From Henricia sp. BOLD:AAB3569 (Eukaryota; Echinodermata; Asteroidea; Spinulosida; Echinasteridae): a DNA stretch of 64,000 nucleotides. Every line of letters starts with the position of its first letter. Positions within the stretch are counted from its first letter, which is position 1. The stretch lies in the NCBI GenBank assembly GCA_037783545.1, contig JBBELK010000364.1:558001-622000 (forward strand). The letters are read 5' to 3'. The position numbers and the translations under genes were made by a program. This document shows, in pieces, positions 31,975-64,000 of this stretch. Below the pieces are notes generated by a model that did no database searches, was not told the DNA's origin, and was given only the letters and a program-made list of their open reading frames with translations.

Positions 31975-31975
<1 letters not shown>

Positions 31976-31979
31976 GTGT

Positions 31980-33712: not shown

Positions 33713-33762
33713 ATACCGATTATTCGATTTGGTAAAAGGCTATTCAAATTTTTGATGCACAG

Positions 33763-34472
33763 GGGCCGATTTCACTAACACGCTGTTTTGCGATCATCGT
33801 TAGAATGATCGCTAAATTCAAATCCATCGTTATTGCGATGGCGATGGATTTTGCATTTCACTAAAGCCGTCGCAATAGCGATGAGTATTAATTATAAATA
33901 CATTTATTGGACGAGGACGATCGCTTAGTAACGCGTAAACAACCATAAATTCAGTGACTCGCTGCACGATTCTGCAGACACTAGCTAGAGATACACAATG
34001 TATGCCATAATCGGATGTTGTGGAATAGAAGCAGCATAGCGTAAAACCTGAAAGCCACAAATACTTCAACGGTTGCAAATGTCAATAATTCTCATGACAC
34101 CATTCCGCGTAAACCGATAATATTTGTGCATCTTTTTGTCACTATGAATCCAGAGGATTTGTCCTGTCCCTAAAAATCCTCTCTCTCTCTGTAATGCTCT
34201 TGCATTGTTTATGTACAACAACTGAAACGCCATTTCGAGACGCACTGAAAATAACGCGAAATTGTATTTTAGCGATGAATGTTTCCATTTACGATGACAA
34301 ATTAGTCGTCGCTAAATATTCATCGCTAAAAACCAACTAGCGATGGCCAACACCATCGCTTAGTTTTTGTGAAATCGCTCTTTGAAGTTGATCGCAAAGT
34401 TGCGATGGATTTCGAGTTTAGTGATTGATTTGGGCATTAGCGATCATCGCAACGCGTTAGTGAAATCGGCCC
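33763..34472. mobile_element. TIR element, 710 bp, CAG target duplication
   Basis: GGGCCGATTTCACTAACACG and its inverted partner CGTTAGTGAAATCGGCCC, flanked by CAG at 33760-33762 and 34473-34475. The inner sequence is dominated by GCGATGG/GCGATCATCG words. Confidence 0.8.
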
Positions 34473-34604
34473 CAGGCCTATGACATTCAACAAATATGAA
34501 ATAACTGACAGTTATTGTTAATAAGCAGCCTATCACAGGTTAAGAATTATAAATCTTATGTTACTTTGAAAAACCCCACTGAACAAAATTGAATGCAAAC
34601 TCAC

Positions 34605-34724
34605 AGCTTTGGCAAGTTGGTCCAGAGAAGCATGGCGGACACACGCAGTTGAAGTCAGCGGTATTAAAGCCAGTAGGAACACAGTTACCACCATTGCCAC
34701 ATGGGACGATGCTGCAAGGGTTCT
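34605..34724 (-). CDS. EGF-like exon with 7 cysteines
   Basis: A 120-bp phase 1-1 exon of 40 residues starting ENPCSIVPCGNGGNCVPTG. The last part reads FNCVCPPCFSGPTC. Seven cysteines are present: the six of EGF plus one after the C-x-C pair (PPC). The extra partner cysteine seen in the three following EGFs, in the loop between C3 and C4, is missing. Acceptor is TTGCAG and donor is T|GTGAGT. Confidence 0.9.
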
Positions 34725-34787
34725 CTGCAAATATAAATATGCCATACTTGAGAAATTTAGATCCATGTACATGTACACTCAACAAAC

Positions 34788-37651: not shown

Positions 37652-37906
37652 GGACATTGATGTTAACTTGGAATGTGCACACTGATGCCAAGCCGGTGTT
37701 ATCTGTTATGCGGTAGTTGACCTCCGTGCTGGGGCTCGTAAACAAACTGCCTGATTGATGTGACTGCGAGTTAATTCTTGCTGAGCCTGAAGCATCGGTG
37801 TACTGTGGCTCAGCCCAGGTTACAGGTATCCCAGCGGGGGAAAACTCCAGTACGCGGTACAGGATGTTATCGGGGCACCGTGTGATGAATGGGGCTGTGT
37901 TGTCCA
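37652..37906 (-). CDS. HYR domain exon
   Basis: A 255-bp phase 1-1 exon of 85 residues. It starts DNTAPFITRCPDNILY, contains VTWAEPQYTDASGSA, and ends YRITDNTGLASVCTFQVNIN. Acceptor is TTGCAG and donor is C|GTAAGT. The donor codon context (NV|R) matches array exon A (SV|R). It is the last HYR before the nine EGF exons. Confidence 0.9.
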
Positions 37907-38189
37907 CTGCAAGTTGTATCAAACCAACAGAAAAACAGTTACCTCGCATGCTTTAGGACTACATGTATAGCAGGTTTACAAAAATCAAACAAGTGTGGCC
38001 TGTTATGGCGAAATGAGGAATGTCCCCAAAATGGCAATATCACACTCAATTCCTGAACTGCGACATATTATATATGGGGTGTTTAAAGATAACATAAAAT
38101 ATCTGCCAACCAGGATTTCAAAATTAATTAACTTCAACAAATCATATCCCTGCAGATTTTAAACCAGTGTACACCATACCTTTAGAGAA

Positions 38190-38980
38190 GTGGCAATTTT
38201 AAAAGTATTTTTCATCAGGGTCATTATTTTTTTTCAGATAATAGATATTAAAGTGACAAATGAGCCAAATGTTCTGCATGGGTGTTATGCATTGGACATT
38301 CTCTGGTTGACGCCAAAAGCATTACACATGGGACACATATGTACATCCCAAGATCTCAGGGAATTTCCACTCTGCGAAGCGACGATACAATACCCTGAGG
38401 AAATCCACGCAAATCTGCGAAGTAACACGGCTGTTGCGTCTAGCAAACACACGCTTGAGTCATTTTGATGTAATCAATTTGGTCATGTTATGCCGAAAAT
38501 AAACCATTTCTATACTTTCCAGAAATTCTATTGGGTTCTGTTCCTTACGACTGTCGCATTCCTACCAAAATTCCCGGCGAGGATCTTATTTACTCTGCAG
38601 CTTTTCAAATTAATAACAGGGATGCATGCTGACGAATTGAATAGAACGGATTCCACAGTATGCTTTAAATAGCAGTCAATCGCCGACGCGGACAACGTCC
38701 AGCATTACCGAGTACATGTACATGTACACACTGCATGCGTGTTACATTTGAATGCCTGCAATGCACTGCCAAGTTTCCTGATTGGTCCAGAGGAGGCGAC
38801 AATATTTCTGTCGCTTGTTCACCAGCGAAATAGGGCCGGTTTCAAACGGGATGGTACATATATATTGCCAGAATGAAATTTGTACATGTACCTAAACTTG
38901 ACAATGCCTAACACACAATACATTTCATAAAAACAGGTGAAATTACTAACAGTTATTGCTAAACAGCATGAATATGAAAT
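38190..38980. repeat. Intron segment shared with the B-A intron of the 4.65-kb unit
   Basis: TTCAGATAATAGATATTAAAG, TTGACGCCAAAAGCATTAC and ACACATGGGACACA match 51260-51360; the block around 38920-38970 matches 51420-51480. Both lie between two HYR exons in the same order. No coding potential seen. Confidence 0.65.
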
Positions 38981-39124
38981 TTCATTTTATTTTATTTTGA
39001 AATTGATTTGGGTTTCACAACAGTCACTGCGTCAAAGATTCAACGCCATGTGCTTATTTTTGCAAACGGGTTCAATAAAGATAATCAAAAGGATGACTAT
39101 GCATTCAGAATGACCGCACTTTGG

Positions 39125-39390
39125 CCCAAACTGGCTGAGGCGGTCGGGTTGGCATAGTGGTTCTAACCCTTCGTTTATCCTTTGACGAACCGAGTTCGAT
39201 TCCCCGAGTGTGTATACATGTAATGTACCGGTACATGTATTTGAATTGCATTATGAAGTCCCTACTTGACTGCACATGTTTTTCCCCAGGAAAAATTTCC
39301 CTGGCCGTTTTCCTCTTACTTCTAAAACTACATGTACATGTACATCTCCTCATATCTTGCATTAATAATAAAGTACAGTTAAAGTTAATA
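39125..39390 (+). mobile_element. tRNA-derived SINE
   Basis: GTTGGCATAGTGGTTCTAAC and CCGAGTTCGATTCCCCGAG give A- and B-box-like motifs; the body CCTGGCCGTTTTCCTCTTAC matches 20252-20490 weakly. Confidence 0.65.
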
Positions 39391-39645
39391 CCATAGAGTG
39401 TATGGCATAGGCAGCCTTTGTTGCCGAAGATGCTATCAAATTAACACCACCACCAAACCGTCAGGTTGGTGGTGGACAAAAAGCCATAACTTATAAAATA
39501 AAGGTTTTATAGTATCGTGTGTTTCCGATACTGTGCAGTAGAAAGCTTAATCAGATTGCATCCAAACTGGTGTAATCTTTTAGTCTTTTTCACAGACTTC
39601 GAAAAAAAAAAAAATGATTTGGCTGTTAGCCACTGTTGAACTCAC

Positions 39646-39906
39646 TAGAATTAATGGTTACAGTGAAAGAGCATGTGGCGAAGTTGCCAGTGACATCGGT
39701 AGCTCTGTATGTTACGGTCTGGGCTGGTCCAACAGGAAAGAAGGCGCCTGGAGGACTATCAGTCAGGCGTTCAATAGTAACAGCGCCTCCAGAGGAATCC
39801 GTTGCAGTGGCTACTTGCCAAGACACTGTAATACCGCTGCTTGTACCCAGTTCCACGGTTTGGGTCATGTCAGAGGGGCATGCTATTACTGGGTCGGTTC
39901 TGTCAA
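39646..39906 (-). CDS. HYR domain exon
   Basis: A 261-bp phase 1-1 exon of 87 residues. It starts DRTDPVIACPSDMTQTVEL, contains VSWQVATATDSSGGAVT, and ends TYRATDVTGNFATCSF then TVTINSS. Acceptor is TTTTAG and donor is A|GTGAGT. The C terminus is closest to array exon B, and the downstream intron shares sequence with the intron downstream of B. Confidence 0.9.
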
Positions 39907-39954
39907 CTAAAAACACAAAATTCACGGAAACAATCAGGCACTTGTATTGTAAGA

Positions 39955-40330
39955 TTAAAGACCAATTACTTGATTGGAAAACTTTTAAAAACAGCAAAAC
40001 ATAAATAAAGAGTAATGTTGATGCACTGTCTTGTAGAAATTTCAGCCACATAGATGCAGCAATATTTCAGAAAACCTAAAAAATAAATCCATGTACACTG
40101 TATGGTTTTTGTTTTGAATGAAAGGTAAAAAAACACATTGTTCTTTAAAAGCACATTGAGTTGGCAATTTCTTTCACCAAGGTACTTTTTACAGGAAAAT
40201 TATGTGGTGTTTTTTACCATTGCTCTCAACACTTTTAGTCAGGTTTTTCTTGTAAACTCGTTAAGTAACATTTGTGGGCTTTAATAGCAGTAATTAGCCT
40301 TTTAGAAGTATGGCGGAACAAAAGGAGAGG
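39955..40330. repeat. Intron segment shared with 4850-5165 and the EGF array
   Basis: Partner of 4850-5165. Its last part (TTTTAGAAGTATGGCGGAAC) also matches the 905-bp segment of the 1.6-kb EGF unit, linking introns of the HYR and EGF regions. Confidence 0.65.
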
Positions 40331-41351
40331 GTGCAATTTCATTTGGGTATGAATTTTTGTATCAATTGTATTTCTTTCCAAAAACTTGATTTACATGTTG
40401 TAATTATATTACATAGACAGAATTATCAATAAAATAAATAAGTGTAAAGTGAAAAACTTAGTTATTTTGCATTTTAGTCGATTTTATACCCACTGCAAAG
40501 TGCGCCCTCCTATTGTGTCCGCCATACTTCAAAAAGGCTATTACCCTGACAAGTTTCTTTTAGTGAAACAGAGATTCTTGTCAACTGTATTATGCATTAT
40601 GAACATACAATATTTTTCATTCATTACTACATGTACACAGGCCGTTTTGTGTTCTTCTCAGGATGACATGACAACCCCGCTTGTAAACAAACCAAGTGAC
40701 CTTGATCATTTCATAATTCTAGGTAAGAAGAGTCGAACTGAATTGCGTTTTAAACAAAATAAATGTAGCTTTTTGGTGGAAAATACAATGTGTTCGCATT
40801 TTAGAAACATATACCTCCATGATAAACAGGAAAACTAAAAAAATGTAGATGGGGGACCACGGGGCGGGATTAGGGTTAAACACACAAATGAAGGCCACAG
40901 TTGCAGTTAATTTGTAGCTTGATGGAGACCTATGGAGTTATCAGAACTTAACGGCTCATGAATATTACTCTAAACAGGCTTATTCCAGACCAGCTTGTAG
41001 CAATGGGCTATTGTAAGCTCACTAGTACCGTATAATAGACCTTTATCACGGTGAAGGTAACCAAAGCGAGATGCACTGATCGTACCTGACATGTACTAGG
41101 GGGAACAAGACAAAGATGGAAACACCGTGACAATAAAAGCATCAAATTCATCACTAACATCCAAAGAAAGTCAGGTGAAAACATTATACATGCATGACAC
41201 ACCAAAGCCTGTTTAGTACTTCCAACCAATGTCTCAGCTCAGTGTGTCAGAGGTTTTGCAACTGAATACAATTTCTTTGATTCCAAGTTAAGCTAGAGGT
41301 AAAATAGCCTAATTACTGCAATAGGTTTAAATGCAGAAAATACATTCTCAC
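40331..41351. other. Intron, nothing firm
   Basis: A 129-codon plus-strand frame (40449-40838) has no recognisable domain or splice context. TATCACGGTG at 41045 and CACCGTGACA at 41126 are inverted over 10 bp. Confidence 0.5.
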
Positions 41352-41612
41352 CTGTACTTATGACAATACAGAAATCGCAAAAGGCGACATTGTTGCTGGG
41401 GTCTGACAGTTGATACCGGACGTTGTGTGTTCCCACCGTAAGAGGCGTGTCTGAAATAGGACCACTGACTCTAATAACAGTTACGTCTTGGTTCGAGTTG
41501 TCAACTCCAGTTGGCGTTATGTATGTCACTCTTGTTGAATCGCCAGAGCCAAGTTCCACAGTGGCCACAAGGTTGGATGGGCAGAACGTGATGATTGGTG
41601 GTTGATTATCCG
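41352..41612 (-). CDS. HYR domain exon with an extra cysteine
   Basis: A 261-bp phase 1-1 exon of 87 residues. It starts DNQPPIITFCPSNLVATVEL and ends VRYQLSDPSNNVAFCDFCIV. The C-terminal strand has two cysteines (FCDFC) where HYR modules normally have one, leaving an odd count of three. Acceptor is TTTCAG and donor is G|GTGAGA. Confidence 0.9.
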
Positions 41613-42964: not shown

Positions 42965-43225
42965 CTTGCAGAGTCACCACAACAGAGAAAATACACAAAC
43001 TCTGCTGGTTACTGCCATCAGTGGCGGTATATGTGATCTGATAGTTGCCCACGGTATACCTTTCCCCAGATTGCCTACTGCCAGCTTGCAGCATAACAAC
43101 AGGTGGTTGACCGGAGTTATCTGTGGCAGATGGGACTGGCCACGTAACAACCACGTCAACAGAACCTATAGGGATCACTTCTGAGTAGCCAGCTGGGCAA
43201 TCAAACACTGGTGGAATGTTATCAG
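42965..43225 (-). CDS. HYR domain exon
   Basis: A 261-bp phase 1-1 exon of 87 residues. It starts DNIPPVFDCPAGYSEV and contains VTWPVPSATDNSGQPP, then ITYTATDGSNQQSLCIF. Acceptor is TTTTAG and donor is G|GTTAGT. All HYR landmarks and both cysteines are present. Confidence 0.9.
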
Positions 43226-44760: not shown

Positions 44761-45024
44761 CTGCTCGATTAATCCGTACATTGAATGTACAAACTGCAAC
44801 ATTGCCTGATGGATCTTCTGCATTGTATGTTATTTCTGTATTGGAGCCGACCAGAAAGGTTGATCCTGAAGCTGGTCCAAATGGTCGGCTGATGATGACA
44901 TTGCCTTGGGAGTTATCATTTGCTTGGGGTTCAACCCAGGTAACTTGTACTTGGTTATCAGGGAAGTTCACAGTGCGCTCGATGTCAGAAAGACATGGTG
45001 TGAACACAGGCTGTACTTGATCCA
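44761..45024 (-). CDS. HYR domain exon
   Basis: A 264-bp phase 1-1 exon of 88 residues. It starts DQVQPVFTPCLSDIERT and contains VTWVEPQANDNSQG and ITYNAEDPSGNVAVCTF. The usual Cys-Pro at the start of the domain is reversed to Pro-Cys here. Acceptor is TTGCAG and donor is G|GTATGA. It is the single-copy exon most like B of the array (both start D-Q, both have DNSQ). Confidence 0.9.
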
Positions 45025-47451: not shown

Positions 47452-47748
47452 GACCCCGCTATCACTATAGAAATTGCTTCGTTCGACGATGATTCGATGA
47501 CAGATTTCCTGATGTGAACGCACACCTCTTCATTCGACGATGATTATAATCACTTCATTCGATGAAGGAAATAGCTTCATTCGACGAAGAGATTGCTTCA
47601 TTCGACGAAACAAATTTGTATTGTAAACGGCTCCCTTCATTCGACGAATCGATTTGGCAGTGATATATGAATGCACGCTTCATTATTAACTACAGATGAT
47701 TAACTAATCTTCGTCAAACGAAGCGATTTCTCTAGTGAGAACAGGGTC
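47452..47748. mobile_element. TIR element, 297 bp, across the array border
   Basis: Ends GACCCCGCTATCACTATAG and inverted CTAGTGAGAACAGGGTC, with GCTTCATTCGACGAA-type words repeated at least five times inside. Complete only here: the tandem unit starts at 47537 within it, so copies in units 2-4 lack the left end. Confidence 0.75.
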
Positions 47749-47820
47749 TAACTGAGGTAAAAATATGCCTTATATTTGCAGTTAGAGAATGTTTGAAGTT
47801 AACAACTTTAAAATACTTAC

Positions 47821-48078
47821 GGACACTGAAAGTGAATGAGCACTCTGCCTGATTGCCTGATTGATCAGTGGCTCTGTAGGTGATGGTGTAGGTGGCAAAT
47901 CCGAGAAATGTATTTTGTCCTTGCTGTGAGGATGACACAAGCTGGGGTATTATCGTAACTCCAGAATTGTCATTAACAGTGGGAAGATTCCAAGTTACTG
48001 AGGCTCCATTATTGTTTCCTGTGTTAACTATGAAGTCTTGAACATTTGGGCAGGTGATGACAGGCGGCACATTGTCAA
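47821..48078 (-). CDS. HYR domain exon A, array unit 1
   Basis: A 258-bp phase 1-1 HYR exon of 86 residues, with GASVTW, QQGQNTFLG and LGFATY. It is the last exon of the tandem array in transcript order. Its donor lies 72 bp from an intact TIR element (47452-47748) that overlaps the array breakpoint. The next exon is the single-copy HYR at 45024, after a 2.8-kb intron. Confidence 0.9.
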
Positions 48079-48210
48079 CTGAAAGAAGAAAGATTAAATA
48101 GTTTAATTTTACTCATTTTGTATACATGTAATGCACAAAATGAGATACAACAAAAATATGTAATTGATGACACTGTGCATGGCAAATGCATGGATGTCAT
48201 TTCGGCTCAC

Positions 48211-48657
48211 AATGCATAGTTCCGATTCTGCCCAGTTAACCCCGCCCCCTTGGACGTTGTTGCTATGGCTCACAAGCTATCGTCTAAAATGGCGTCACAC
48301 AACGCACAAAGCAATGGGACTTTCAACGGAAAGCACAGATTCATTGAAGAAAACTCAATGGTATTCATGTTTCAGGGTCAACAGTTATCTTAGAACACAC
48401 TGAGTAAAGGGCCAGTAATACAGGGATATCATATCATCACGAAATATAGCTTTCGTACCTGTGAAGAACGAAACGACCGGCTTTGAAACCAAAAATTAAC
48501 CCGGATCGTCGCATACAACACTGTACAAATTGTATGGTGCCGGCAGAACATGTTGTTGTGATCGTACAGTGCACTTTGACCTATGTGGGTGATATCTGCT
48601 AGCTCTGTTGTAATTGGTCGGCGGGTTCGGTTGATTGACAGGTCGGAACTATGCATT
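48211..48657. mobile_element. TIR element, 447 bp, array unit 1
   Basis: Ends AATGCATAGTTCCGA and TCGGAACTATGCATT. Family member of 24621-25087. Repeated in the array at 52862-53308, 57514-57960 and 62166-62612. Confidence 0.8.
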
Positions 48658-48879
48658 TATTTACATGCAGTGTGATTCTTGTGGCACCCTTTGAGAGATA
48701 TTTAAGGAAGTTGAGGGACGGACAACATTTTGTGCGAGGGACGGACAAAACGGGACTAACAACGTAAGTTTATCAAACTAAACTTGGAATGTACTGTAGT
48801 CTTTGACATTATAGGATTTGAGCAAAACAAGGTAGGGAGATTATTTGTTTTTACGAAGACCCCATTATATAAGCTGAGT

Positions 48880-48956
48880 GATGGTTGTGATGAATGGAGG
48901 TGATGAACGGACGTGATGAATGGAGGTGATGAACGGACGTGATGAACGGACGTTAG
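48880..48956. repeat. GGACGT minisatellite in the 4.65-kb unit
   Basis: Short GTGATGAACGGAC and GTGATGAATGGAG repeats of 12-13 bp. Their number and order differ between unit 1 and units 2-4. Confidence 0.8.
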
Positions 48957-49269
48957 GGATATTTGTGCTCACTATTGCGTTACATACATGTACTACATTG
49001 TCATAAAGTGATTTATATATTTCACAGAAATGATATCCACCCCAATTTCCCACCCAAACCCCTAAATCGGCCGTACACCTAGCATTTCATCCGTGATCCG
49101 ATCACGATAGCACATGTTATGCAGTGGCATCACAAGGTGTACGAATTTTTCGTGCATTCCAATAGCAATAAGGTCACAATTTTGTTCCCGTGTCCGTCGC
49201 AACGTAATCGCAGAATTTCGAGCATGCTCGAATTTTGGCGTGTCTGTGCAATCGCAACGAAGTTGGAAC

Positions 49270-49970
49270 AACAAAATAAAAATTCAAGGTCACGTGACTT
49301 TTCGGAACCAGATTCTGGTTCCGAAAAGTCACATGGTCTTGCGAGTTAGTTTTGTGTCTAGCCGCATGAAAGTTTCTTCCTGCAGAACTGCAAAAAATTC
49401 AACTCTGATTTTCCCCCAATATTCATATAAAGTAATTGACAAAAGAGAAATTATTTATACAGGTATGAAACAAAGTTAAACATATGTATGAAAATTCGAG
49501 CATAAATGTTTGTTTCGAGAGTCCGGGGAGCGAGCGCGTGCTACGGCAGGCTACCGTGGAGTGTTATATATTTGCCAAGTGCAGCACGGCAAATAGTCTG
49601 AGTGCACACACGCTCGGGTTGGTTGCTCCGGTGTACGTTTGTGAAGAGAAAACATGATGCTAACTCCTCAAAAGAAAACGGAAATTCCTATTCGGTCGTC
49701 CGGGCTGTCCAGTGAAATCGTGAGCAGAAAATCAGAGATATCCCGAGTAGGAGAAGAGCGAATCGTTTGTGACAAAGTCGTGAAGCTCGCGCGTAGTTGC
49801 AACGGCTAGTAAAGCGTATAACCGTCTTTTGACAATTTTTGTTAATTTTGCACTTCTTTAGTAAATTACGGGATATTTTGATGATCTTTTTTTACAACGA
49901 CCATCAAAAAAGTATTGTCAATGCTGCTACATCACTAAATCATGTAAACAGTAGGCCGGTGTGTACAATG
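49270..49970. mobile_element. Partial copy of the 777-bp MITE in array unit 1
   Basis: From the GGTCACGTGACTTTTCGG block to a decayed right end (AGTAGGCCGGTGTGTAC). Includes the 39-bp palindrome at 49294-49332. Recurs at +4651, +9303 and +13955. Confidence 0.7.
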
Positions 49971-50329
49971 AAAAATAAAAGCACAAGATAGATAACTGAT
50001 GACACAGTGCATGGGTGGACTAACAAAATGTGCAAATGCAGCGTGACCACTGTGGTGACCCAGCAGGACTAAGTATGTTTATTGTACTGCAGAAATTTCA
50101 AAATTGGTAGAGCGTGGATCCTTGCAAACCCTAAAAAAGAAGTGTCACTCTCTCTTTACGTTACCAGTGCAACATGTTTCAAATGTTTGCATAGTATCTG
50201 TAGATGGAGGTTTTAAAAAGACAGACAAATAAGCAATTTGCCAAGGTATAGCATTTCAAGTTATTTGTATCAACATAATTTTTATACTAACCCCAAAGAG
50301 AAACAATTTTCTTTAAATATATCTTGATT

Positions 50330-51000
50330 AGAACAGAAGTTTGTTGGAAACGATTCGCTCTTTACTTGGCAGCTTTTTGCTTTGGATATCTCATTTTCTG
50401 CTGAAGATTTCACTGGACAGCCTGGACGACAGAATGGGTTTTTCCATTTTCTGTAGTGGAGCTGACATACATGGTTTGTCTTCATGAACGTACAATTGTA
50501 GTTCCTTGCCGGACACTGTACATGTACCTGTTTTGGGCAGGCAACGTGCTTGTGCCGTGGGGCTAAATGTCACATTGTCTGGTAGACTGTCCACGGTGAA
50601 ACTCGCTTTGGTTTCTTCGGACTTTGTCAATTTTATGTTAGATTTTTCAGACTTATGTTTAACTTTGTTAAGTAACCTGAATAAATATTCTTTGTCAAAT
50701 ACTCATAAATATTTTGAAAATAAAATCGGAGCTGAATTCAATGCCGTACTGCAGTAATAAACTTCCGGAATAAACTGTGTATCATACGGCCGGCTGGAAA
50801 TAAAACTAACTCCAAGAACACGTTCCGATAAATCATGTGACCTCGAATTTTTGAAAAATGCTAAAAACCGGCCAAATTTTGAGGTTTCTTTTTAGGTTCT
50901 CTTCAGTCCGTTTCAGAAGGACTTTCAGAATTATGTGCGGGTCTATTTCGTGCCCAAAATATAGCCCAACAAAGCCGTTCAGTCCCTTTAAGCATACACA
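50330..51000. mobile_element. Inverted partial copy of the 777-bp MITE in array unit 1
   Basis: Runs to AACAAAGCCGTTCAGTCCC, the reverse complement of the MITE left end. With the partial copy at 49270-49970 it forms an opposed pair. The 79-codon minus-strand frame here (repeated in each unit) is element sequence, with no domain I recognise. Recurs in units 2 and 3. Confidence 0.65.
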
Positions 51001-51631
51001 GTACACCAACGCCGTATGCCATGGCACTTGCTTGGCGACTGGACTTGCACAAGTAAAGTTTGTTCTGCGAAATTACTGAAAGGGCGCTCTTTTTATGCTT
51101 GGTAAAATATATGGTCCATTGGTAGAGCAAAGAAGCGGAAAATAAAATATGGGCTGCACAAAAAAAAAAATTTGAAATCCGATAAAAATCAGAAATGTTA
51201 CACCACTGTGTTATGTTAGATCGAAATTCGTTCTCCAGGATATCTGAACAAGTACTTTAATTGTTTCAGATAACAGACATCAAAGTGACAAATCAGCAAA
51301 ATTGATGTTACGCATGGGACACTTTTCCAGTTGACGCAAAAAACATTACACATGGGACACGCACACTTATTTTCTACCATCTTTCCAGAGTGGAATTTGT
51401 GGATGCAGATAACTTTGGAAATGCTCAACACACAAGTCATTTCATGAAGCATGCGATATAAATAATTGTTATCGCTGAGCAGCCTATTACAGGGCATGAA
51501 CTTGAGCATTCAATTGATTTTGAAACACCCCAGTACGTAGTGCCGTGTTTGTTATGCTAAGCTCTTGTTTGCTGCACAGAGAGTGATAATACAAAAAAAA
51601 CAAAATGTATCAAACAATTATTTCTCCATAC

Positions 51632-51898
51632 CTGCTGAGTTAACAGTTACTGTAAAAGAGCATGTGGCCACGTTGTTTGAGCTGTCAGTAGCAGTGTATG
51701 TGATTGTAACCGGTGGTATTCCTACAATAAAGTTGGATCCCGGAGCTGCCCCAAATGTTCGTATAGCATTGACTTGCTGCTGAGAATTATCAGTGGCAGT
51801 GGGCGCAACCCAGCTGACAGGAAAAGAACTGCTGCCAAAGTTTGCTGTGTTGACGATATCGGTTGGGCAACCGAACAGTGTTGGATTAATTTGATCAA
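51632..51898 (-). CDS. HYR domain exon B, array unit 1
   Basis: A 267-bp phase 1-1 HYR exon of 89 residues, B type. Acceptor is TCCCAG and donor is G|GTATGG. Both canonical cysteines are present and the frame has no stop. It is the last B exon in the transcript; exon A of unit 1 follows after a 3.55-kb intron. Confidence 0.9.
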
Positions 51899-52053
51899 CT
51901 GGGAAAAGAAAAAGATATCAAACACAATGTTATTTAATACCAGTGCTACAATATACAGTTAAGCCCAAAATTATTTACACTCTTACAAAATTTGGAGTAT
52001 TTTTAATGGTGTTATTTGACGAATGAGTTTCCTCTGGGCTTAGTTACATGTAC

Positions 52054-52187
52054 ACTCAAGGAAAAAAGAAACGCACCACGTAAATTTCATTTTTTTAAAA
52101 AGGAAATAGGACCGGCATAGTAAAAATGGTACATGTTCTAGATTTTGAGCAATTTAGAGATAAACGTCGATCTTTATTTATCTCGTT
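52054..52187. mobile_element. Truncated TIR element end at unit junctions
   Basis: TACACTCAAGGAAAAAAGAA resembles the ends of the TA foldbacks in this window, but no inverted partner follows: the sequence is cut at 52187 by the tandem junction. Recurs before 56840 and 61492. Confidence 0.55.
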
Positions 52188-52471
52188 ACGATGATTATAA
52201 TCACTTCATTCGATGAAGGAAATAGCTTCATTCGACGAAGAGATTGCTTCATTCGACGAAACAAATTTGTATTGTAAACGGCTCCCTTCATTCGACGAAT
52301 CGATTTGGCAGTGATATATGAATGCACGCTTCATTATTAACTACAGATGATTAACTAATCTTCGTCAAACGAAGCGATTTCTCTAGTGAGAACAGGGTCT
52401 AACTGAGGTAAAAATATGCCTTATATTTGCAGTTAGAGAATGTTTGAAGTTAACAACTTTAAAATACTTAC

Positions 52472-52729
52472 GGACACTGAAAGTGAATGAGCACTCTGCC
52501 TGATTGCCTGATTGATCAGTGGCTCTGTAGGTGATGGTGTAGGTGGCAAATCCGAGAAATGTATTTGGTCCTTGCTGTGAGGATGACACAAGCTGGGGTA
52601 TTATCGTAACTCCAGAATTGTCATTAACAGTGGGAAGATTCCAAGTTACGAAGGCTCCATTATTGTTTCCTGTGTTAACTATGAAGTCTTGAACATTTGG
52701 GCAGGTGATGACAGGCGGCACATTGTCAA
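52472..52729 (-). CDS. HYR domain exon A, array unit 2
   Basis: A 258-bp phase 1-1 HYR exon of 86 residues. This copy has two private changes against the other A exons: F for S in GAFVTW and P for Q in QQGPNTFLG. It keeps A in LGFATY like unit 1. The private changes show that it is a real diverged copy rather than a repeated read of the same locus. Confidence 0.9.
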
Positions 52730-55700
52730 CTGAAAGAAGAAAGATTAAATAGTTTAATTTTACTCATTTTGTATACATGTAATGCACAAAATGAGATACA
52801 ACAAAAATATGTAATTGATGACACTGTGCATGGCAAATGCATGGATGTCATTTCGGCTCACAATGCATAGTTCCGATTCTGCCCAGTTAACCCCGCCCCC
52901 TTGGACGTTGTTGCTATGGCTCACAAGCTATCGTCTAAAATGGCGTCACACAACGCACAAAGCAATGGGACTTTCAACGGAAAGCACAGATTCATTGAAG
53001 AAAACTCAATGGTATTCATGTTTCAGGGTCAACAGTTATCTTAGAACACACTGAGTAAAGGGCCAGTAATACAGGGATATCATATCATCACGAAATATAG
53101 CTTTCGTACCTGTGAAGAACGAAACGACCGGCTTTGAAACCAAAAATTAACCCGGATCGTCGCATACAACACTGTACAAATTGTATGGTGCCGGCAGAAC
53201 ATGTTGTTGTGATCGTACAGTGCACTTTGACCTATGTGGGTGATATCTGCTAGCTCTGTTGTAATTGGTCGGCGGGTTCGGTTGATTGACAGGTCGGAAC
53301 TATGCATTTATTTACATGCAGTGTGATTCTTGTGGCACCCTTTGAGAGATATTTAAGGAAGTTGAGGGACGGACAACATTTTGTGCGAGGGACGGACAAA
53401 ACGGGACTAACAACGTAAGTTTATCAAACTAAACTTGGAATGTACTGTAGTCTTTGACATTATAGGATTTGAGCAAAACAAGGTAGGGAGATTATTTGTT
53501 TTTACGAAGACCCCATTATATAAGCTGAGTGATGGTTGTGATGAATGGAGGTGATGAACGGACGTGATGAACGGACGTGAGAAATGGACGTAAGGAACGG
53601 ACGTTAGGGATATTTGTGCTCACTATTGCGTTACATACATGTACTACATTGTCATAAAGTGATTTATATATTTCACAGAAATGATATCCACCCCAATTTC
53701 CCACCCAAACCCCTAAATCGGCCGTACACCTAGCATTTCATCCGTGATCCGATCACGATAGCACATGTTATGCAGTGGCATCACAAGGTGTACGAATTTT
53801 TCGTGCATTCCAATAGCAATAAGGTCACAATTTTGTTCCCGTGTCCGTCGCAACGTAATCGCAGAATTTCGAGCATGCTCGAATTTTGGCGTGTCTGTGC
53901 AATCGCAACGAAGTTGGAACAACAAAATAAAAATTCAAGGTCACGTGACTTTTCGGAACCAGATTCTGGTTCCGAAAAGTCACATGGTCTTGCGAGTTAG
54001 TTTTGTGTCTAGCCGCATGAAAGTTTCTTCCTGCAGAACTGCAAAAAATTCAACTCTGATTTTCCCCCAATATTCATATAAAGTAATTGACAAAAGAGAA
54101 ATTATTTATACAGGTATGAAACAAAGTTAAACATATGTATGAAAATTCGAGCATAAATGTTTGTTTCGAGAGTCCGGGGAGCGAGCGCGTGCTACGGCAG
54201 GCTACCGTGGAGTGTTATATATTTGCCAAGTGCAGCACGGCAAATAGTCTGAGTGCACACACGCTCGGGTTGGTTGCTCCGGTGTACGTTTGTGAAGAGA
54301 AAACATGATGCTAACTCCTCAAAAGAAAACGGAAATTCCTATTCGGTCGTCCGGGCTGTCCAGTGAAATCGTGAGCAGAAAATCAGAGATATCCCGAGTA
54401 GGAGAAGAGCGAATCGTTTGTGACAAAGTCGTGAAGCTCGCGCGTAGTTGCAACGGCTAGTAAAGCGTATAACCGTCTTTTGACAATTTTTGTTAATTTT
54501 GCACTTCTTTAGTAAATTACGGGATATTTTGATGATCTTTTTTTACAACGACCATCAAAAAAGTATTGTCAATGCTGCTACATCACTAAATCATGTAAAC
54601 AGTAGGCCGGTGTGTACAATGAAAAATAAAAGCACAAGATAGATAACTGATGACACAGTGCATGGGTGGACTAACAAAATGTGCAAATGCAGCGTGACCA
54701 CTGTGGTGACCCAGCAGGACTAAGTATGTTTATTGTACTGCAGAAATTTCAAAATTGGTAGAGCGTGGATCCTTGCAAACCCTAAAAAAGAAGTGTCACT
54801 CTCTCTTTACGTTACCAGTGCAACATGTTTCAAATGTTTGCATAGTATCTGTAGATGGAGGTTTTAAAAAGACAGACAAATAAGCAATTTGCCAAGGTAT
54901 AGCATTTCAAGTTATTTGTATCAACATAATTTTTATACTAACCCCAAAGAGAAACAATTTTCTTAAAATATATCTTGATTAGAACAGAAGTTTGTTGGAA
55001 ACGATTCGCTCTTTACTTGGCAGCTTTTTGCTTTGGATATCTCATTTTCTGCTGAAGATTTCACTGGACAGCCTGGACGACAGAATGGGTTTTTCCATTT
55101 TCTGTAGTGGAGCTGACATACATGGTTTGTCTTCATGAACGTACAATTGTAGTTCCTTGCCGGACACTGTACATGTACCTGTTTTGGGCGGGCAACGTGC
55201 TTGTGCCGTGGGGCTAAATGTCACATTGTCTGGTAGACTGTCCACGGTGAAACTCGCTTTGGTTTCTTCGGACTTTGTCAATTTTATGTTAGATTTTTCA
55301 GACTTATGTTTAACTTTGTTAAGTAACCTGAATAAATATTCTTTGTCAAATACTCATAAATATTTTGAAAATAAAATCGGAGCTGAATTCAATGCCGTAC
55401 TGCAGTAATAAACTTCCGGAATAAACTGTGTATCATACGGCCGGCTGGAAATAAAACTAACTCCAAGAACACGTTCCGATAAATCATGTGACCTCGAATT
55501 TTTGAAAAATGCTAAAAACCGGCCAAATTTTGAGGTTTCTTTTTAGGTTCTCTTCAGTCCGTTTCAGAAGGACTTTCAGAATTATGTGCGGGTCTATTTC
55601 GTGCCCAAAATATAGCCCAACAAAGCCGTTCAGTCCCTTTAAGCATACACAGTACACCAACGCCGTATGCCATGGCACTTGCTTGGCGACTGGACTTGCA

Positions 55701-56282
55701 CAAGTAAAGTTTGTTCTGCGAAATTACTGAAAGGGCGCTCTTTTTATGCTTGGTAAAATATATGGTCCATTGGTAGAGCAAAGAAGCGGAAAATAAAATA
55801 TGGGCTGCACAAAAAAAAAAAATTGAAATCCGATAAAAATCAGAAATGTTACACCACTGTGTTATGTTAGATCGAAATTCGTTCTCCAGGATATCTGAAC
55901 AAGTACTTTAATTGTTTCAGATAACAGACATCAAAGTGACAAATCAGCAAAATTGATGTTACGCATGGGACACTTTTCCAGTTGACGCAAAAAACATTAC
56001 ACATGGGACACGCACACTTATTTTCTACCATCTTTCCAGAGTGGAATTTGTGGATGCAGATAACTTTGGAAATGCTCAACACACAAGTCATTTCATGAAG
56101 CATGCGATATAAATAATTGTTATCGCTGAGCAGCCTATTACAGGGCATGAACTTGAGCATTCAATTGATTTTGAAACACCCCAGTACGTAGTGCCGTGTT
56201 TGTTATGCTAAGCTCTTGTTTGCTGCACAGAGAGTGATAATACAAAAAAAACAAAATGTATCAAACAATTATTTCTCCATAC

Positions 56283-56549
56283 CTGCTGAGTTAACAGTTA
56301 CTGTAAAAGAGCATGTGGCCACGTTGTTTGAGCTGTCAGTAGCAGTGTATGTGATTGTAACCGGTGGTATTCCTACAATAAAGTTGGATCCCGGAGCTGC
56401 CCCAAATGTTCGTATAGCATTGACTTGCTGCTGAGAATTATCAGTGGCAGTGGGCGCAACCCAGCTGACAGGAAAAGAACTGCTGCCAAAGTTTGCTGTG
56501 TTGACGATATCGGTTGGGCAACCGAACAGTGTTGGATTAATTTGATCAA
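56283..56549 (-). CDS. HYR domain exon B, array unit 2
   Basis: A 267-bp phase 1-1 exon encoding the 89-residue B-type HYR module (GCPTDI near the start, NNVATCSF near the end). I see no coding difference from the B exons of units 1 and 3. The short intron upstream of it, toward A of unit 3, contains the unit junction and a truncated transposon end. Confidence 0.9.
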
Positions 56550-57123
56550 CTGGGAAAAGAAAAAGATATCAAACACAATGTTATTTAATACCAGTGCTAC
56601 AATATACAGTTAAGCCCAAAATTATTTACACTCTTACCAAATTTGGAGTATTTTTAATGGTGTTATTTGACGAATGAGTTTCCTCTGGGCTTAGTTACAT
56701 GTACACTCAAGGAAAAAAGAAACGCACCACGTAAAATTTCATTTTTTTAAAAAGGAAATAGGACCGGCATAGTAAAAATGGTACATGTTCTAGATTTTGA
56801 GCAATTTAGAGATAAACGTCGATCTTTATTTATCTCGTTACGATGATTATAATCACTTCATTCGATGAAGGAAATAGCTTCATTCGACGAAGAGATTGCT
56901 TCATTCGACGAAACAAATTTGTATTGTAAACGGCTCCCTTCATTCGACGAATCGATTTGGCAGTGATATATGAATGCACGCTTCATTATTAACTACAGAT
57001 GATTAACTAATCTTCGTCAAACGAAGCGATTTCTCTAGTGAGAACAGGGTCTAACTGAGGTAAAAATATGCCTTATATTTGCAGTTAGAGAATGTTTGAA
57101 GTTAACAACTTTAAAATACTTAC

Positions 57124-57381
57124 GGACACTGAAAGTGAATGAGCACTCTGCCTGATTGCCTGATTGATCAGTGGCTCTGTAGGTGATGGTGTAGGTGCCA
57201 AATCCGAGAAATGTATTTTGTCCTTGCTGTGAGGATGACACAAGCTGGGGTATTATCGTAACTCCAGAATTGTCATTAACAGTGGGAAGATTCCAAGTTA
57301 CTGAGGCTCCATTATTGTTTCCTGTGTTAACTATGAAGTCTTGAACATTTGGGCAGGTGATGACAGGCGGCACATTGTCAA
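57124..57381 (-). CDS. HYR domain exon A, array unit 3
   Basis: A 258-bp phase 1-1 exon encoding an 86-residue HYR module with DNVPPVITCP at the start and GNQAECSF near the end. It reads the same as the unit 4 copy and differs from units 1 and 2 by G instead of A in LGFGTY. The upstream intron, between this exon and B of unit 3, is about 3.55 kb and carries the dispersed repeats of the array unit. Confidence 0.9.
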
Positions 57382-60300
57382 CTGAAAGAAGAAAGATTAA
57401 ATAGTTTAATTTTACTCATTTTGTATACATGTAATGCACAAAATGAGATACAACAAAAATATGTAATTGATGACACTGTGCATGGCAAATGCATGGATGT
57501 CATTTCGGCTCACAATGCATAGTTCCGATTCTGCCCAGTTAACCCCGCCCCCTTGGACGTTGTTGCTATGGCTCACAAGCTATCGTCTAAAATGGCGTCA
57601 CACAACGCACAAAGCAATGGGACTTTCAACGGAAAGCACAGATTCATTGAAGAAAACTCAATGGTATTCATGTTTCAGGGTCAACAGTTATCTTAGAACA
57701 CACTGAGTAAAGGGCCAGTAATACAGGGATATCATATCATCACGAAATATAGCTTTCGTACCTGTGAAGAACGAAACGACCGGCTTTGAAACCAAAAATT
57801 AACCCGGATCGTCGCATACAACACTGTACAAATTGTATGGTGCCGGCAGAACATGTTGTTGTGATCGTACAGTGCACTTTGACCTATGTGGGTGATATCT
57901 GCTAGCTCTGTTGTAATTGGTCGGCGGGTTCGGTTGATTGACAGGTCGGAACTATGCATTTATTTACATGCAGTGTGATTCTTGTGGCACCCTTTGAGAG
58001 ATATTTAAGGAAGTTGAGGGACGGACAACATTTTGTGCGAGGGACGGACAAAACGGGACTAACAACGTAAGTTTATCAAACTAAACTTGGAATGTACTGT
58101 AGTCTTTGACATTATAGGATTTGAGCAAAACAAGGTAGGGAGATTATTTGTTTTTACGAAGACCCCATTATATAAGCTGAGTGATGGTTGTGATGAATGG
58201 AGGTGATGAACGGACGTGATGAACGGACGTGAGAAATGGACGTAAGGAACGGACGTTAGGGATATTTGTGCTCACTATTGCGTTACATACATGTACTACA
58301 TTGTCATAAAGTGATTTATATATTTCACAGAAATGATATCCACCCCAATTTCCCACCCAAACCCCTAAATCGGCCGTACACCTAGCATTTCATCCGTGAT
58401 CCGATCACGATAGCACATGTTATGCAGTGGCATCACAAGGTGTACGAATTTTTCGTGCATTCCAATAGCAATAAGGTCACAATTTTGTTCCCGTGTCCGT
58501 CGCAACGTAATCGCAGAATTTCGAGCATGCTCGAATTTTGGCGTGTCTGTGCAATCGCAACGAAGTTGGAACAACAAAATAAAAATTCAAGGTCACGTGA
58601 CTTTTCGGAACCAGATTCTGGTTCCGAAAAGTCACATGGTCTTGCGAGTTAGTTTTGTGTCTAGCCGCATGAAAGTTTCTTCCTGCAGAACTGCAAAAAA
58701 TTCAACTCTGATTTTCCCCCAATATTCATATAAAGTAATTGACAAAAGAGAAATTATTTATACAGGTATGAAACAAAGTTAAACATATGTATGAAAATTC
58801 GAGCATAAATGTTTGTTTCGAGAGTCCGGGGAGCGAGCGCGTGCTATGGCAGGCTACCGTGGAGTGTTATATATTTGCCAAGTGCAGCACGGCAAATAGT
58901 CTGAGTGCACACACGCTCGGGTTGGTTGCTCAGGTGTACGTTTGTGAAGAGAAAACATGATGCTAACTCCTCAAAAGAAAACGGAAATTCCTATTCGGTC
59001 GTCCGGGCTGTCCAGTGAAATCGTGAGCAGAAAATCAGAGATATCCCGAGTAGGAGAAGAGCGAATCGTTTGTGACAAAGTCGTGAAGCTCGCGCGTAGT
59101 TGCAACGGCTAGTAAAGCGTATAACCGTCTTTTGACAATTTTTGTTAATTTTGCACTTCTTTAGTAAATTACGGGATATTTTGATGATCTTTTTTTACAA
59201 CGACCATCAAAAAAGTATTGTCAATGCTGCTACATCACTAAATCATGTAAACAGTAGGCCGGTGTGTACAATGAAAAATAAAAGCACAAGATAGATAACT
59301 GATGACACAGTGCATGGGTGGACTAACAAAATGTGCAAATGCAGCGTGACCACTGTGGTGACCCAGCAGGACTAAGTATGTTTATTGTACTGCAGAAATT
59401 TCAAAATTGGTAGAGCGTGGATCCTTGCAAACCCTAAAAAAGAAGTGTCACTCTCTCTTTACGTTACCAGTGCAACATGTTTCAAATGTTTGCATAGTAT
59501 CTGTAGATGGAGGTTTTAAAAAGACAGACAAATAAGCAATTTGCCAAGGTATAGCATTTCAAGTTATTTGTATCAACATAATTTTTATACTAACCCCAAA
59601 GAGAAACAATTTTCTTAAAATATATCTTGATTAGAACAGAAGTTTGTTGGAAACGATTCGCTCTTTACTTGGCAGCTTTTTGCTTTGGATATCTCATTTT
59701 CTGCTGAAGATTTCACTGGACAGCCTGGACGACAGAATGGGTTTTTCCATTTTCTGTAGTGGAGCTGACATACATGGTTTGTCTTCATGAACGTACAATT
59801 GTAGTTCCTTGCCGGACACTGTACATGTACCTGTTTTGGGCGGGCAACGTGCTTGTGCCGTGGGGCTAAATGTCACATTGTCTGGTAGACTGTCCACGGT
59901 GAAACTCGCTTTGGTTTCTTCGGACTTTGTCAATTTTATGTTAGATTTTTCAGACTTATGTTTAACTTTGTTAAGTAACCTGAATAAATATTCTTTGTCA
60001 AATACTCATAAATATTTTGAAAATAAAATCGGAGCTGAATTCAATGCCGTACTGCAGTAATAAACTTCCGGAATAAACTGTGTATCATACGGCCGGCTGG
60101 AAATAAAACTAACTCCAAGAACACGTTCCGATAAATCATGTGACCTCAAATTTTTGAAAAATGCTAAAAACCGGCCAAATTTTGAGGTTTCTTTTTAGGT
60201 TCTCTTCAGTCCGTTTCAGAAGGACTTTCAGAATTATGTGCGGGTCTATTTCGTGCCCAAAATATAGCCCAACAAAGCCGTTCAGTCCCTTTAAGCATAC

Positions 60301-60934
60301 ACAGTACACCAACGCCGTATGCCATGGCACTTGCTTGGCGACTGGACTTGCACAAGTAAAGTTTGTTCTGCGAAATTACTGAAAGGGCGCTCTTTTTATG
60401 CTTGGTAAAATATATGGTCCATTGGTAGAGCAAAGAAGCGGAAAATAAAATATGGGCTGCACAAAAAAAAAAAATTGAAATCCGATAAAAATCAGAAATG
60501 TTACACCACTGTGTTATGTTAGATCGAAATTCGTTCTCCAGGATATCTGAACAAGTACTTTAATTGTTTCAGATAACAGACATCAAAGTGACAAATCAGC
60601 AAAATTGATGTTACGCATGGGACACTTTTCCAGTTGACGCAAAAAACATTACACATGGGACACGCACACTTATTTTCTACCATCTTTCCAGAGTGGAATT
60701 TGTGGATGCAGATAACTTTGGAAATGCTCAACACACAAGTCATTTCATGAAGCATGCGATATAAATAATTGTTATCGCTGAGCAGCCTATTACAGGGCAT
60801 GAACTTGAGCATTCAATTGATTTTGAAACACCCCAGTACGTAGTGCCGTGTTTGTTATGCTAAGCTCTTGTTTGCTGCACAGAGAGTGATAATACAAAAA
60901 AAACAAAATGTATCAAACAATTATTTCTCCATAC

Positions 60935-61201
60935 CTGCTGAGTTAACAGTTACTGTAAAAGAGCATGTGGCCACGTTGTTTGAGCTGTCAGTAGCAGTGT
61001 ATGTGATTGTAACCGGTGGTATTCCTACAATAAAGTTGGATCCCGGAGCTGCCCCAAATGTTCGTATAGCATTGACTTGCTGCTGAGAATTATCAGTGGC
61101 AGTGGGCGCAACCCAGCTGACAGGAAAAGAACTGCTGCCAAAGTTTGCTGTGTTGACGATATCGGTTGGGCAACCGAACAGTGTTGGATTAATTTGATCA
61201 A
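60935..61201 (-). CDS. HYR domain exon B, array unit 3
   Basis: A 267-bp phase 1-1 exon encoding 89 residues. It starts DQINPTLFGCPTDI, contains VSWVAPTATDNSQQ, and ends TYTATDSSNNVATCSF before TVTVNSA. Acceptor is TCCCAG and donor is G|GTATGG. It has no internal methionine start, but the frame is open from splice site to splice site. It follows exon A of unit 4 after a 574-bp intron. It resembles the single-copy HYR exon at 44761-45024 (both start D-Q) and the one at 39646-39906 (similar C terminus). Confidence 0.9.
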
Positions 61202-61491
61202 CTGGGAAAAGAAAAAGATATCAAACACAATGTTATTTAATACCAGTGCTACAATATACAGTTAAGCCCAAAATTATTTACACTCTTACCAAATTTGGAG
61301 TATTTTTAATGGTGTTATTTGACGAATGAGTTTCCTCTGGGCTTAGTTACATGTACACTCAAGGAAAAAAGAAACGCACCACGTAAAATTTCATTTTTTT
61401 AAAAAGGAAATAGGACCGGCATAGTAAAAATGGTACATGTTCTAGATTTTGAGCAATTTAGAGATAAACGTCGATCTTTATTTATCTCGTT

Positions 61492-64000
61492 ACGATGATT
61501 ATAATCACTTCATTCGATGAAGGAAATAGCTTCATTCGACGAAGAGATTGCTTCATTCGACGAAACAAATTTGTATTGTAAACGGCTCCCTTCATTCGAC
61601 GAATCGATTTGGCAGTGATATATGAATGCACGCTTCATTATTAACTACAGATGATTAACTAATCTTCGTCAAACGAAGCGATTTCTCTAGTGAGAACAGG
61701 GTCTAACTGAGGTAAAAATATGCCTTATATTTGCAGTTAGAGAATGTTTGAAGTTAACAACTTTAAAATACTTACGGACACTGAAAGTGAATGAGCACTC
61801 TGCCTGATTGCCTGATTGATCAGTGGCTCTGTAGGTGATGGTGTAGGTGCCAAATCCGAGAAATGTATTTTGTCCTTGCTGTGAGGATGACACAAGCTGG
61901 GGTATTATCGTAACTCCAGAATTGTCATTAACAGTGGGAAGATTCCAAGTTACTGAGGCTCCATTATTGTTTCCTGTGTTAACTATGAAGTCTTGAACAT
62001 TTGGGCAGGTGATGACAGGCGGCACATTGTCAACTGAAAGAAGAAAGATTAAATAGTTTAATTTTACTCATTTTGTATACATGTAATGCACAAAATGAGA
62101 TACAACAAAAATATGTAATTGATGACACTGTGCATGGCAAATGCATGGATGTCATTTCGGCTCACAATGCATAGTTCCGATTCTGCCCAGTTAACCCCGC
62201 CCCCTTGGACGTTGTTGCTATGGCTCACAAGCTATCGTCTAAAATGGCGTCACACAACGCACAAAGCAATGGGACTTTCAACGGAAAGCACAGATTCATT
62301 GAAGAAAACTCAATGGTATTCATGTTTCAGGGTCAACAGTTATCTTAGAACACACTGAGTAAAGGGCCAGTAATACAGGGATATCATATCATCACGAAAT
62401 ATAGCTTTCGTACCTGTGAAGAACGAAACGACCGGCTTTGAAACCAAAAATTAACCCGGATCGTCGCATACAACACTGTACAAATTGTATGGTGCCGGCA
62501 GAACATGTTGTTGTGATCGTACAGTGCACTTTGACCTATGTGGGTGATATCTGCTAGCTCTGTTGTAATTGGTCGGCGGGTTCGGTTGATTGACAGGTCG
62601 GAACTATGCATTTATTTACATGCAGTGTGATTCTTGTGGCACCCTTTGAGAGATATTTAAGGAAGTTGAGGGACGGACAACATTTTGTGCGAGGGACGGA
62701 CAAAACGGGACTAACAACGTAAGTTTATCAAACTAAACTTGGAATGTACTGTAGTCTTTGACATTATAGGATTTGAGCAAAACAAGGTAGGGAGATTATT
62801 TGTTTTTACGAAGACCCCATTATATAAGCTGAGTGATGGTTGTGATGAATGGAGGTGATGAACGGACGTGATGAACGGACGTGAGAAATGGACGTAAGGA
62901 ACGGACGTTAGGGATATTTGTGCTCACTATTGCGTTACATACATGTACTACATTGTCATAAAGTGATTTATATATTTCACAGAAATGATATCCACCCCAA
63001 TTTCCCACCCAAACCCCTAAATCGGCCGTACACCTAGCATTTCATCCGTGATCCGATCACGATAGCACATGTTATGCAGTGGCATCACAAGGTGTACGAA
63101 TTTTTCGTGCATTCCAATAGCAATAAGGTCACAATTTTGTTCCCGTGTCCGTCGCAACGTAATCGCAGAATTTCGAGCATGCTCGAATTTTGGCGTGTCT
63201 GTGCAATCGCAACGAAGTTGGAACAACAAAATAAAAATTCAAGGTCACGTGACTTTTCGGAACCAGATTCTGGTTCCGAAAAGTCACATGGTCTTGCGAG
63301 TTAGTTTTGTGTCTAGCCGCATGAAAGTTTCTTCCTGCAGAACTGCAAAAAATTCAACTCTGATTTTCCCCCAATATTCATATAAAGTAATTGACAAAAG
63401 AGAAATTATTTATACAGGTATGAAACAAAGTTAAACATATGTATGAAAATTCGAGCATAAATGTTTGTTTCGAGAGTCCGGGGAGCGAGCGCGTGCTACG
63501 GCAGGCTACCGTGGAGTGTTATATATTTGCCAAGTGCAGCACGGCAAATAGTCTGAGTGCACACACGCTCGGGTTGGTTGCTCCGGTGTACGTTTGTGAA
63601 GAGAAAACATGATGCTAACTCCTCAAAAGAAAACGGAAATTCCTATTCGGTCGTCCGGGCTGTCCAGTGAAATCGTGAGCAGAAAATCAGAGATATCCCG
63701 AGTAGGAGAAGAGCGAATCGTTTGTGACAAAGTCGTGAAGCTCGCGCGTAGTTGCAACGGCTAGTAAAGCGTATAACCGTCTTTTGACAATTTTTGTTAA
63801 TTTTGCACTTCTTTAGTAAATTACGGGATATTTTGATGATCTTTTTTTACAACGACCATCAAAAAAGTATTGTCAATGCTGCTACATCACTAAATCATGT
63901 AAACAGTAGGCCGGTGTGTACAATGAAAAATAAAAGCACAAGATAGATAACTGATGACACAGTGCATGGGTGGACTAACAAAATGTGCAAATGCAGCGTG
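61492..64000. repeat. 4.65-kb tandem unit 4, cut by window edge
   Basis: First 2.5 kb of a fourth unit, with exon A (61776-62033) and the TIR element at 62166-62612. Its exon B is expected near 65590. The array therefore continues upstream of the visible gene part. Confidence 0.93.
61776..62033 (-). CDS. HYR domain exon A, array unit 4
   Basis: A 258-bp phase 1-1 exon encoding 86 residues. It opens with DNVPPVITCP, the classic HYR start, contains VTWNLPTVNDNSG in the middle, and ends with the TITYRATDQSGNQAECSF hallmark. Acceptor is TTTCAG and donor is C|GTAAGT. The two HYR cysteines are present. It is the most upstream exon in the window; its B partner in the same unit would lie beyond base 64000. 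The sequence matches the unit 3 copy (S in GASVTW, G in LGFGTY). Confidence 0.9.

Follow-up and report, generated by a model that had tools for sequence, protein, structure and literature searches.

An intragenic array of HYR exon pairs in the sea star Henricia, probably differing in copy number between two haplotypes

A 64,000-nucleotide stretch of the genome of the sea star Henricia sp. BOLD:AAB3569 (assembly GCA_037783545.1, contig JBBELK010000364.1, here C364, positions 558,001 to 622,000; the window) contains a head-to-tail array of a 4.65-kb unit with two HYR exons, A and B. Coordinates refer to the window unless a contig is named, and those given as window+N beyond 64000 continue on the same contig past the window end. 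The array begins at 47537 and has a period of 4,651-4,652 bp and identities of 99.6-99.9% by self-comparison, in which 47537-59348 aligns with 52188-64000 at 99.80% and matches at longer offsets have 99.68-99.72% identity. A base-shuffled 4.65-kb unit, used as the control for array detection, gave zero matches to the window. The original prediction, made from the sequence letters, had proposed a pair of HYR exons repeated every 4.65 kb with introns nearly identical as well, with exon A at 47821, 52472, 57124 and 61776 and exon B at 51632, 56283 and 60935. These positions were correct to the base as the low ends of the exons, and the period and the conservation of the introns were borne out. 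To this we add that the exons are on the minus strand, that there are five units and a sixth A exon, and that the array is one of three in a longer exon run. The five units span C364:605,537-628,795, and 3.5 of them lie inside the window.

Unit 1 (47537..52187) comprises 284 bp of the intron after A1, exon A1 (47821..48078), an intron of 3,553 bp, exon B1 (51632..51898) and 289 bp of the short intron. Unit 2 (52188..56839, 99.68% identical to unit 1) carries exons A2 (52472..52729) and B2 (56283..56549), and unit 3 (56840..61491, 99.66% identical to unit 1) carries A3 (57124..57381) and B3 (60935..61201). Unit 4 (61492..66143), with A4 (61776..62033), runs past the window end at 64000, and unit 5 (66144-70795) lies outside the window; all are on the minus strand. 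Exon A has 258 nt and exon B 267 nt, both with AG acceptors, GT donors, phase 1 on both sides and no stop, and the two introns of the unit measure 3,553 bp and 573-574 bp. The exon sequence of a unit thus amounts to 525 nt or 175 codons, as first proposed. Each exon encodes a complete HYR domain and has phase 1 at both ends, so a unit adds two domains (175 residues) in frame. The sixth A exon (A6) lies past the five units, outside the window, and is more diverged than A1-A5. The intron next to it is longer (3,599 bp) and houses a Tc1/mariner-like element whose inverted ends are about 342 bp long (window+70,656 to +72,334; C364:628,656-630,334), named from a reading of its own sequence, with no database match behind the name.

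The assignment to HYR agrees with Pfam (PF02494, curated cut-off 21.7 bits; exons A1, A2, B1 and C submitted), which gave 59.1 bits for A1, 55.9 for A2 and 66.5 for B1 (3 of 3 above the cut-off), and 63.8 for the neighbouring exon C. Across 20 exon sequences found with our own HYR model, several of them A or B copies, C10, D72 and C80 are invariant, and the hallmark of the domain (two conserved cysteines and an aspartate ahead of the last strand) is present. The AlphaFold model of the A1 domain has a mean predicted local distance difference test score (pLDDT) of 84.3. Compared with the PDB, it found no match at E<=0.001, the best being bacterial adhesin domains (SraP and Fap1, E 0.06-0.1), and phmmer against PDB sequences returned weak matches (best E 0.17 for A and 0.66 for B).

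In the alignment of the five units, 22 of 4,652 columns are variable, one of them a 1-base gap. Of these 22, a 13-bp minisatellite accounts for seven and exon A for five, and exon B has none. Unit 1 differs from the rest at 15-17 columns, unit 2 from units 3-5 at 7-8, unit 3 from units 4 and 5 at 4-5, and unit 4 from unit 5 at one. This graded divergence fits stepwise growth. Recent expansion, also part of the original prediction, is upheld: units differ from one another at 1-17 columns, versus an identity of about 95.5% (gaps counted) to the matching segment of a second contig, C476. The junction between units 1 and 2 (52178..52202, plus strand) shows a 3-bp microhomology, ACG. Its 25-mer occurs four times in the 740.7-Mb assembly, always on C364. 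The right end of the unit lies within the terminal repeat of the Tc1/mariner-like element and the left end in other intron sequence, with only ACG common to both.

C476 carries a second version of the exon run. The assembly searched has 2,104 contigs, of which C364 measures 710,679 bp and C476 1,364,417 bp; in genome-wide sequence queries the best-ranked candidates were scored, and copy counts are those among the matches listed. Listed by rising coordinate, C364 has 13 HYR exons (D C A B A B A B A B A B A) and C476 has 9 (D C A C A B A B A). The 25-mer search of the whole assembly did not find the 4.65-kb junction on C476. Instead, C476 has two A-B units of 7.6 kb, 97.9% alike and both with inverted ends like those of the Tc1/mariner-like element, and a private C-A duplication of 3.85 kb with GT common at its junction. 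Summed over its exons, the A-B-C region comes to 1,049 residues on C364 (six A, five B, one C) and 698 on C476 (four A, two B, two C), a difference of 351. Exon C (44761..45024, minus strand) lies downstream of the array in the gene and is duplicated, together with A, on C476 only; like all A and B copies, all its copies are phase 1-1 and free of stops. Exon D (42965..43225, minus strand) is single on both contigs in the compared stretches and has a codon-sized insertion and deletion between them. A tRNA gene is predicted by Rfam in the D-C intron on the opposite strand (43964-44036, plus).

The array belongs to a minus-strand run of EGF, HYR and HYR-like exons that covers about 143 kb, between window -19.6 kb and +123.5 kb. 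When 172,679 bases of the minus strand were scanned by codon use, with known HYR, EGF and V exons as the training set, 59 candidates emerged, almost all of them of the EGF, HYR or HYR-like (V) types. Judged by first-listed splice sites, HYR exons have a phase 1 acceptor in 12 of 14 cases and a phase 1 donor in 13 of 14, and EGF exons are phase 1-1 in 15 of 19. Three single-copy HYR exons (HYR37, HYR39 and HYR41) lie at 37659..41610 on the minus strand (cores 37659-37904, 39653-39904 and 41359-41610). EGF-like exons occupy 22600..34730 on the same strand; of three submitted to Pfam EGF, one passed, one scored just below the cut-off and one had no match.

The second array of the run has a 1.6-kb unit with an EGF exon and lies in two minus-strand blocks. 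Block 1 (1..4653, continuing left of the window) has five EGF exons in all, and block 2 (11436..15344) has three on C364 and two on C476. The total is eight EGF exons on C364 and seven on C476, where the five of block 1 are estimated from match coverage. On C476, about 2.6 kb of other sequence separates units of block 1. The third array consists of 11 V exons, mostly at 2,330-2,333-bp spacing (C364:641,960-668,200; window+83,960 to +110,200), and neighbouring units are 99.8-100% identical within each block, with a nearly invariant exon. Its bit scores are equal on C364 and C476 and its length is the same to within 22 bp. Membership of the V domain in HYR was considered and rejected (no Pfam match; hhalign ambiguous at probability 26.5% and E 0.0007), and we call it HYR-like only. 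A segment 91% identical to the V unit lies at C431:128,143-129,165, with a HYR match near (140,477-140,734), possibly an older paralogous locus. Past the V array, a 603-residue open frame on the minus strand (window+113,778 to +115,586) resembles what we take to be a LINE-type reverse transcriptase.

A HYR profile search of the genome gave at least 150 matches, C364 and C476 included (the best 150 of 505 candidates were scored). Evenly spaced HYR matches with equal or near-equal scores were seen at C37:108,073-117,077 (about 0.38 kb apart), C937:3,775-21,743 (about 5.9 kb apart) and C937:66,651-73,000 (about 3.05 kb apart). Given these, this genome may be generally prone to expanding HYR exons in tandem. 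Elsewhere in the assembly, the mitochondrial genome is apparently tandem-assembled on C955 (three COX1 matches 16,221 bp apart), and one more COX1 match is on C2104. At conserved positions of mitochondrial COX1, AAA stands for Asn and ATA for Ile, which is the code of echinoderms. Six tRNA genes were detected ahead of COX1, five of them on the opposite strand, and both this arrangement and the 16,221-bp size are typical of sea stars.

As a whole, these observations are probably best explained by an intragenic coding macrosatellite in a giant EGF/HYR mosaic gene, with a unit count that differs between alleles. The exons would be joined in one transcript for an adhesive protein, secreted or on the cell surface, whose domain number varies. 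C364 and C476 are most simply read as two haplotypes of one animal, with an island of divergence around the array. They are colinear over about 154 kb, from C364:536,855 (C476:1,214,149) to C364:691,000 (C476:1,356,960). At the left end, C364:536,855-538,921 and C476:1,214,149-1,216,215 have equal bit scores to the query; near the right end, C364:688,001-691,000 is 100% identical to C476 over 3,000 bases. C476 matches the left flank between 22883 and the array, and the right flank between window+76.1 kb and +80.8 kb. Subtracting C364 from C476 coordinates gives an offset of 677,294 for the left end, 673,612 for the first EGF block, 675,118 for 22883, 667,167-667,189 across the V array and 665,960 for the right end. 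Besides the A-B array, the contigs therefore differ in length by some kb left of 22883 and by about 1.2 kb on the right. In 2-kb bins, divergence is 0.1-0.7% at 22.9-36 kb of the window, rises to 1.1-2.1% over 36-46 kb and is 0.6% over 46-48 kb; right of the array, five 1-kb bins give 0.6, 1.5, 0.9, 0.5 and 0.0%. Where divergence is zero, a single homozygous sequence may have gone into both contigs. The original prediction had suggested that the number of HYR pairs may differ between individuals or haplotypes: the difference in number stands (13 versus 9 HYR exons on two colinear contigs), and that the two contigs are alleles is the likelier reading of their colinearity.

Several observations weigh against this explanation as a whole. 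The comparison of the two contigs starts at C364:536,855, with nothing further left. The two copies in the C-A duplication of C476 agree at 99.3% along 2.0 kb but at 94-97% along the remaining 1.4 kb, an uneven signal of age. That all exons join in a single transcript is less secure for the V exons, where an acceptor was called in two of seven cases and a phase-1 donor in none, and the codon-use scan was trained on the exon types that it recovered. Neither a signal peptide nor a membrane anchor was found in the exon run.

The strongest alternative, which we consider unlikely, is that C364 and C476 are recently duplicated genes (a segmental duplication), with copy number differing between paralogues. 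Both contigs are indeed in one assembly, the end stretches without detected difference are what a very recent duplication would give, and C431 has what may be a related older locus (930 bp at 91% to the V unit, plus the HYR match). Against paralogy, the contigs are colinear over the full 154 kb, and the matches listed for five queries included no further copy similar in length and identity; apart from C364 and C476, these matches were dispersed repeats and shorter related pieces. In addition, the extrapolated offset would put C364 almost wholly inside C476, as in a haplotig, and the contig pairs C885/C489 and C917/C30 also have equal-scoring matches, which suggests that duplicate contigs were kept in the assembly.

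It is very unlikely that the true array is shorter and was stretched to five units during assembly. Units 4 and 5 differ at one column and units 3 and 4 at four, and the exact unit count therefore rests on the assembler. However, units 1, 2 and 3 hold fixed differences in graded order, the four HYR exons beside the array (37659, 39653, 41359 and D) are single on both contigs, and repeated A and B exons were seen independently on C476. Assemblers also collapse repeats more often than they expand them. A decayed, non-expressed pseudogene array is barely credible: pN is close to pS in the four non-array HYR exons discussed below, a conserved tryptophan is lost in one A copy on C476 and exon D has its insertion and deletion, but every A, B and C exon (12 on C364, eight on C476) has an open frame and intact splice sites, only two of 93 codons of the V exon vary over 11 copies (both in copy 7), and six of seven EGF stretches are identical between the contigs, the seventh having a single base difference.

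The array may have arisen in two steps. One A-B exon pair would have been tandem-duplicated by the joining of two unrelated intron points through the 3-bp microhomology. Unequal exchange among near-identical 4.65-kb units would then have produced the five on the C364 haplotype. Because the breakpoints have only 3 bp in common, the first duplication was probably not by homologous recombination, which would be the simplest route for the later growth. Transposon-mediated homologous duplication, with a breakpoint in the Tc1/mariner-like terminal repeat, was rejected as just 3 bp are common at the junction. The C476 haplotype has the longer 7.6-kb A-B unit twice and would have acquired its own separate C-A duplication through a 2-bp microhomology.

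Variation in exon A is mostly amino-acid changing. The mean ratio of nonsynonymous to synonymous differences per site (pN/pS) is 2.2 for A (10 copies), 1.0 for B (seven copies) and 0.64 for C (three copies). Site by site, the excess of variable columns in exon A (five of 22, and none in B) is significant (Fisher p=0.006, or p=0.001 when the minisatellite cluster is taken as a single event). We do not accept this as proof of positive selection on exon A: with neighbouring sites merged, two of 11 events are in A (p=0.12). Against it also stand the non-array exons HYR37, HYR39, HYR41 and C, which have pN 0.017 and pS 0.016 (13 nonsynonymous and four synonymous differences, binomial p=0.58), a count that left out exon D because of its insertion and deletion. 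The A copies carry common variants in a mosaic pattern, as gene conversion would give. A comparison of exon and intron diversity was dropped, since some copies have non-homologous flanks, which inflate intron values.

The closest parallel would seem to be the KIV-2 repeat of LPA, which encodes human apolipoprotein(a). Its 5.5-kb unit has exons of 160 and 182 bp and introns of 4 and 1.2 kb, and occurs in 1 to more than 40 copies (PMC4378929). As there, the Henricia unit (4.65 kb) is intragenic, has two exons with one long and one short intron, and repeats an extracellular domain in near-identical units. In LPA the unit number differs between alleles; here it may do so, with 13 and 9 HYR exons on two colinear, probably allelic contigs. 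Whole exons of matching phase keep the frame (phase 1-1, 525 nt per unit), and the near-identity extends to the introns (22 of 4,652 columns variable over five units). In LPA, two exons make one kringle, whereas here each exon is a whole HYR and a unit adds two domains. The contigs also differ in the exons duplicated (A-B versus C-A), and the two structures come from one assembly. The kind of locus is already known, and the additional trait here is that the two probable haplotypes duplicated different exon pairs.

Other comparisons are less close. The putative echinoderm egg receptor of EBR1_5 type is reported to be under positive selection in its HYR domains (PMC5521101). It is likewise a HYR-rich echinoderm protein, and differs in that EGF exons are present here; the type is marked by a SEA domain and a transmembrane segment next to the HYR domains. 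No SEA or transmembrane exon was among the 59 candidates of the scan, which covered 172 kb and was trained on HYR, EGF and V exons, with no SEA-directed search. Among sea star footprint proteins, Sfp5 has three hyalin repeats and FAMeT, and Sfp7 two EGF-like, one hyalin and two FAMeT domains; sea urchin hyalin is mentioned alongside them (PMC9382459). Sfp5 and Sfp7 are secreted sea star proteins that combine hyalin repeats with EGF-like or FAMeT domains, and there are far more HYR exons here. FAMeT (PF12248) gave 115 matches among 123 scored candidates genome-wide and none on C364 or C476, which disfavours a protein of the footprint type. On C37, FAMeT matches lie about 13-18 kb from HYR matches, as in sea star footprint proteins. 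Sea urchin hyalin is itself a long series of HYR domains in an adhesive extracellular matrix, and we know of no EGF domains or haplotype-variable exon number in it.

PMC4063459 mentions a further tandem-repeat recognition protein, VERL (the abalone egg vitelline receptor for lysin). The likeness lies in tandem repeats, concerted evolution and an extracellular recognition protein; VERL differs in having 22 repeats of about 153 residues and a role in gametes. Its repeat domain is unrelated to HYR. No paper on copy-number polymorphism of HYR exons was found among the matches listed by a search that subscription journals mostly fall outside, which is weak evidence of absence.

A role in recognition is a tentative and rather doubtful reading. 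The locus would be hypervariable, serving recognition of gametes, of self and non-self or of microbes, and haplotypes of different HYR number and order would be kept by balancing selection. This is suggested by divergence that reaches 2% beside the array and is about zero tens of kb away, by exon duplications that arose separately on each haplotype, and by an EGF exon number that differs too.

If the contigs are alleles, their different exon structures mean that the encoded extracellular proteins should differ by four HYR domains, about 351 residues here. One animal would then have two versions of an adhesion-type extracellular protein, four domains apart, and the locus would be an invertebrate counterpart to LPA KIV-2. 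If so, the rate of array change would be measurable, and domain number could bear on fertilization, settlement or host defence.

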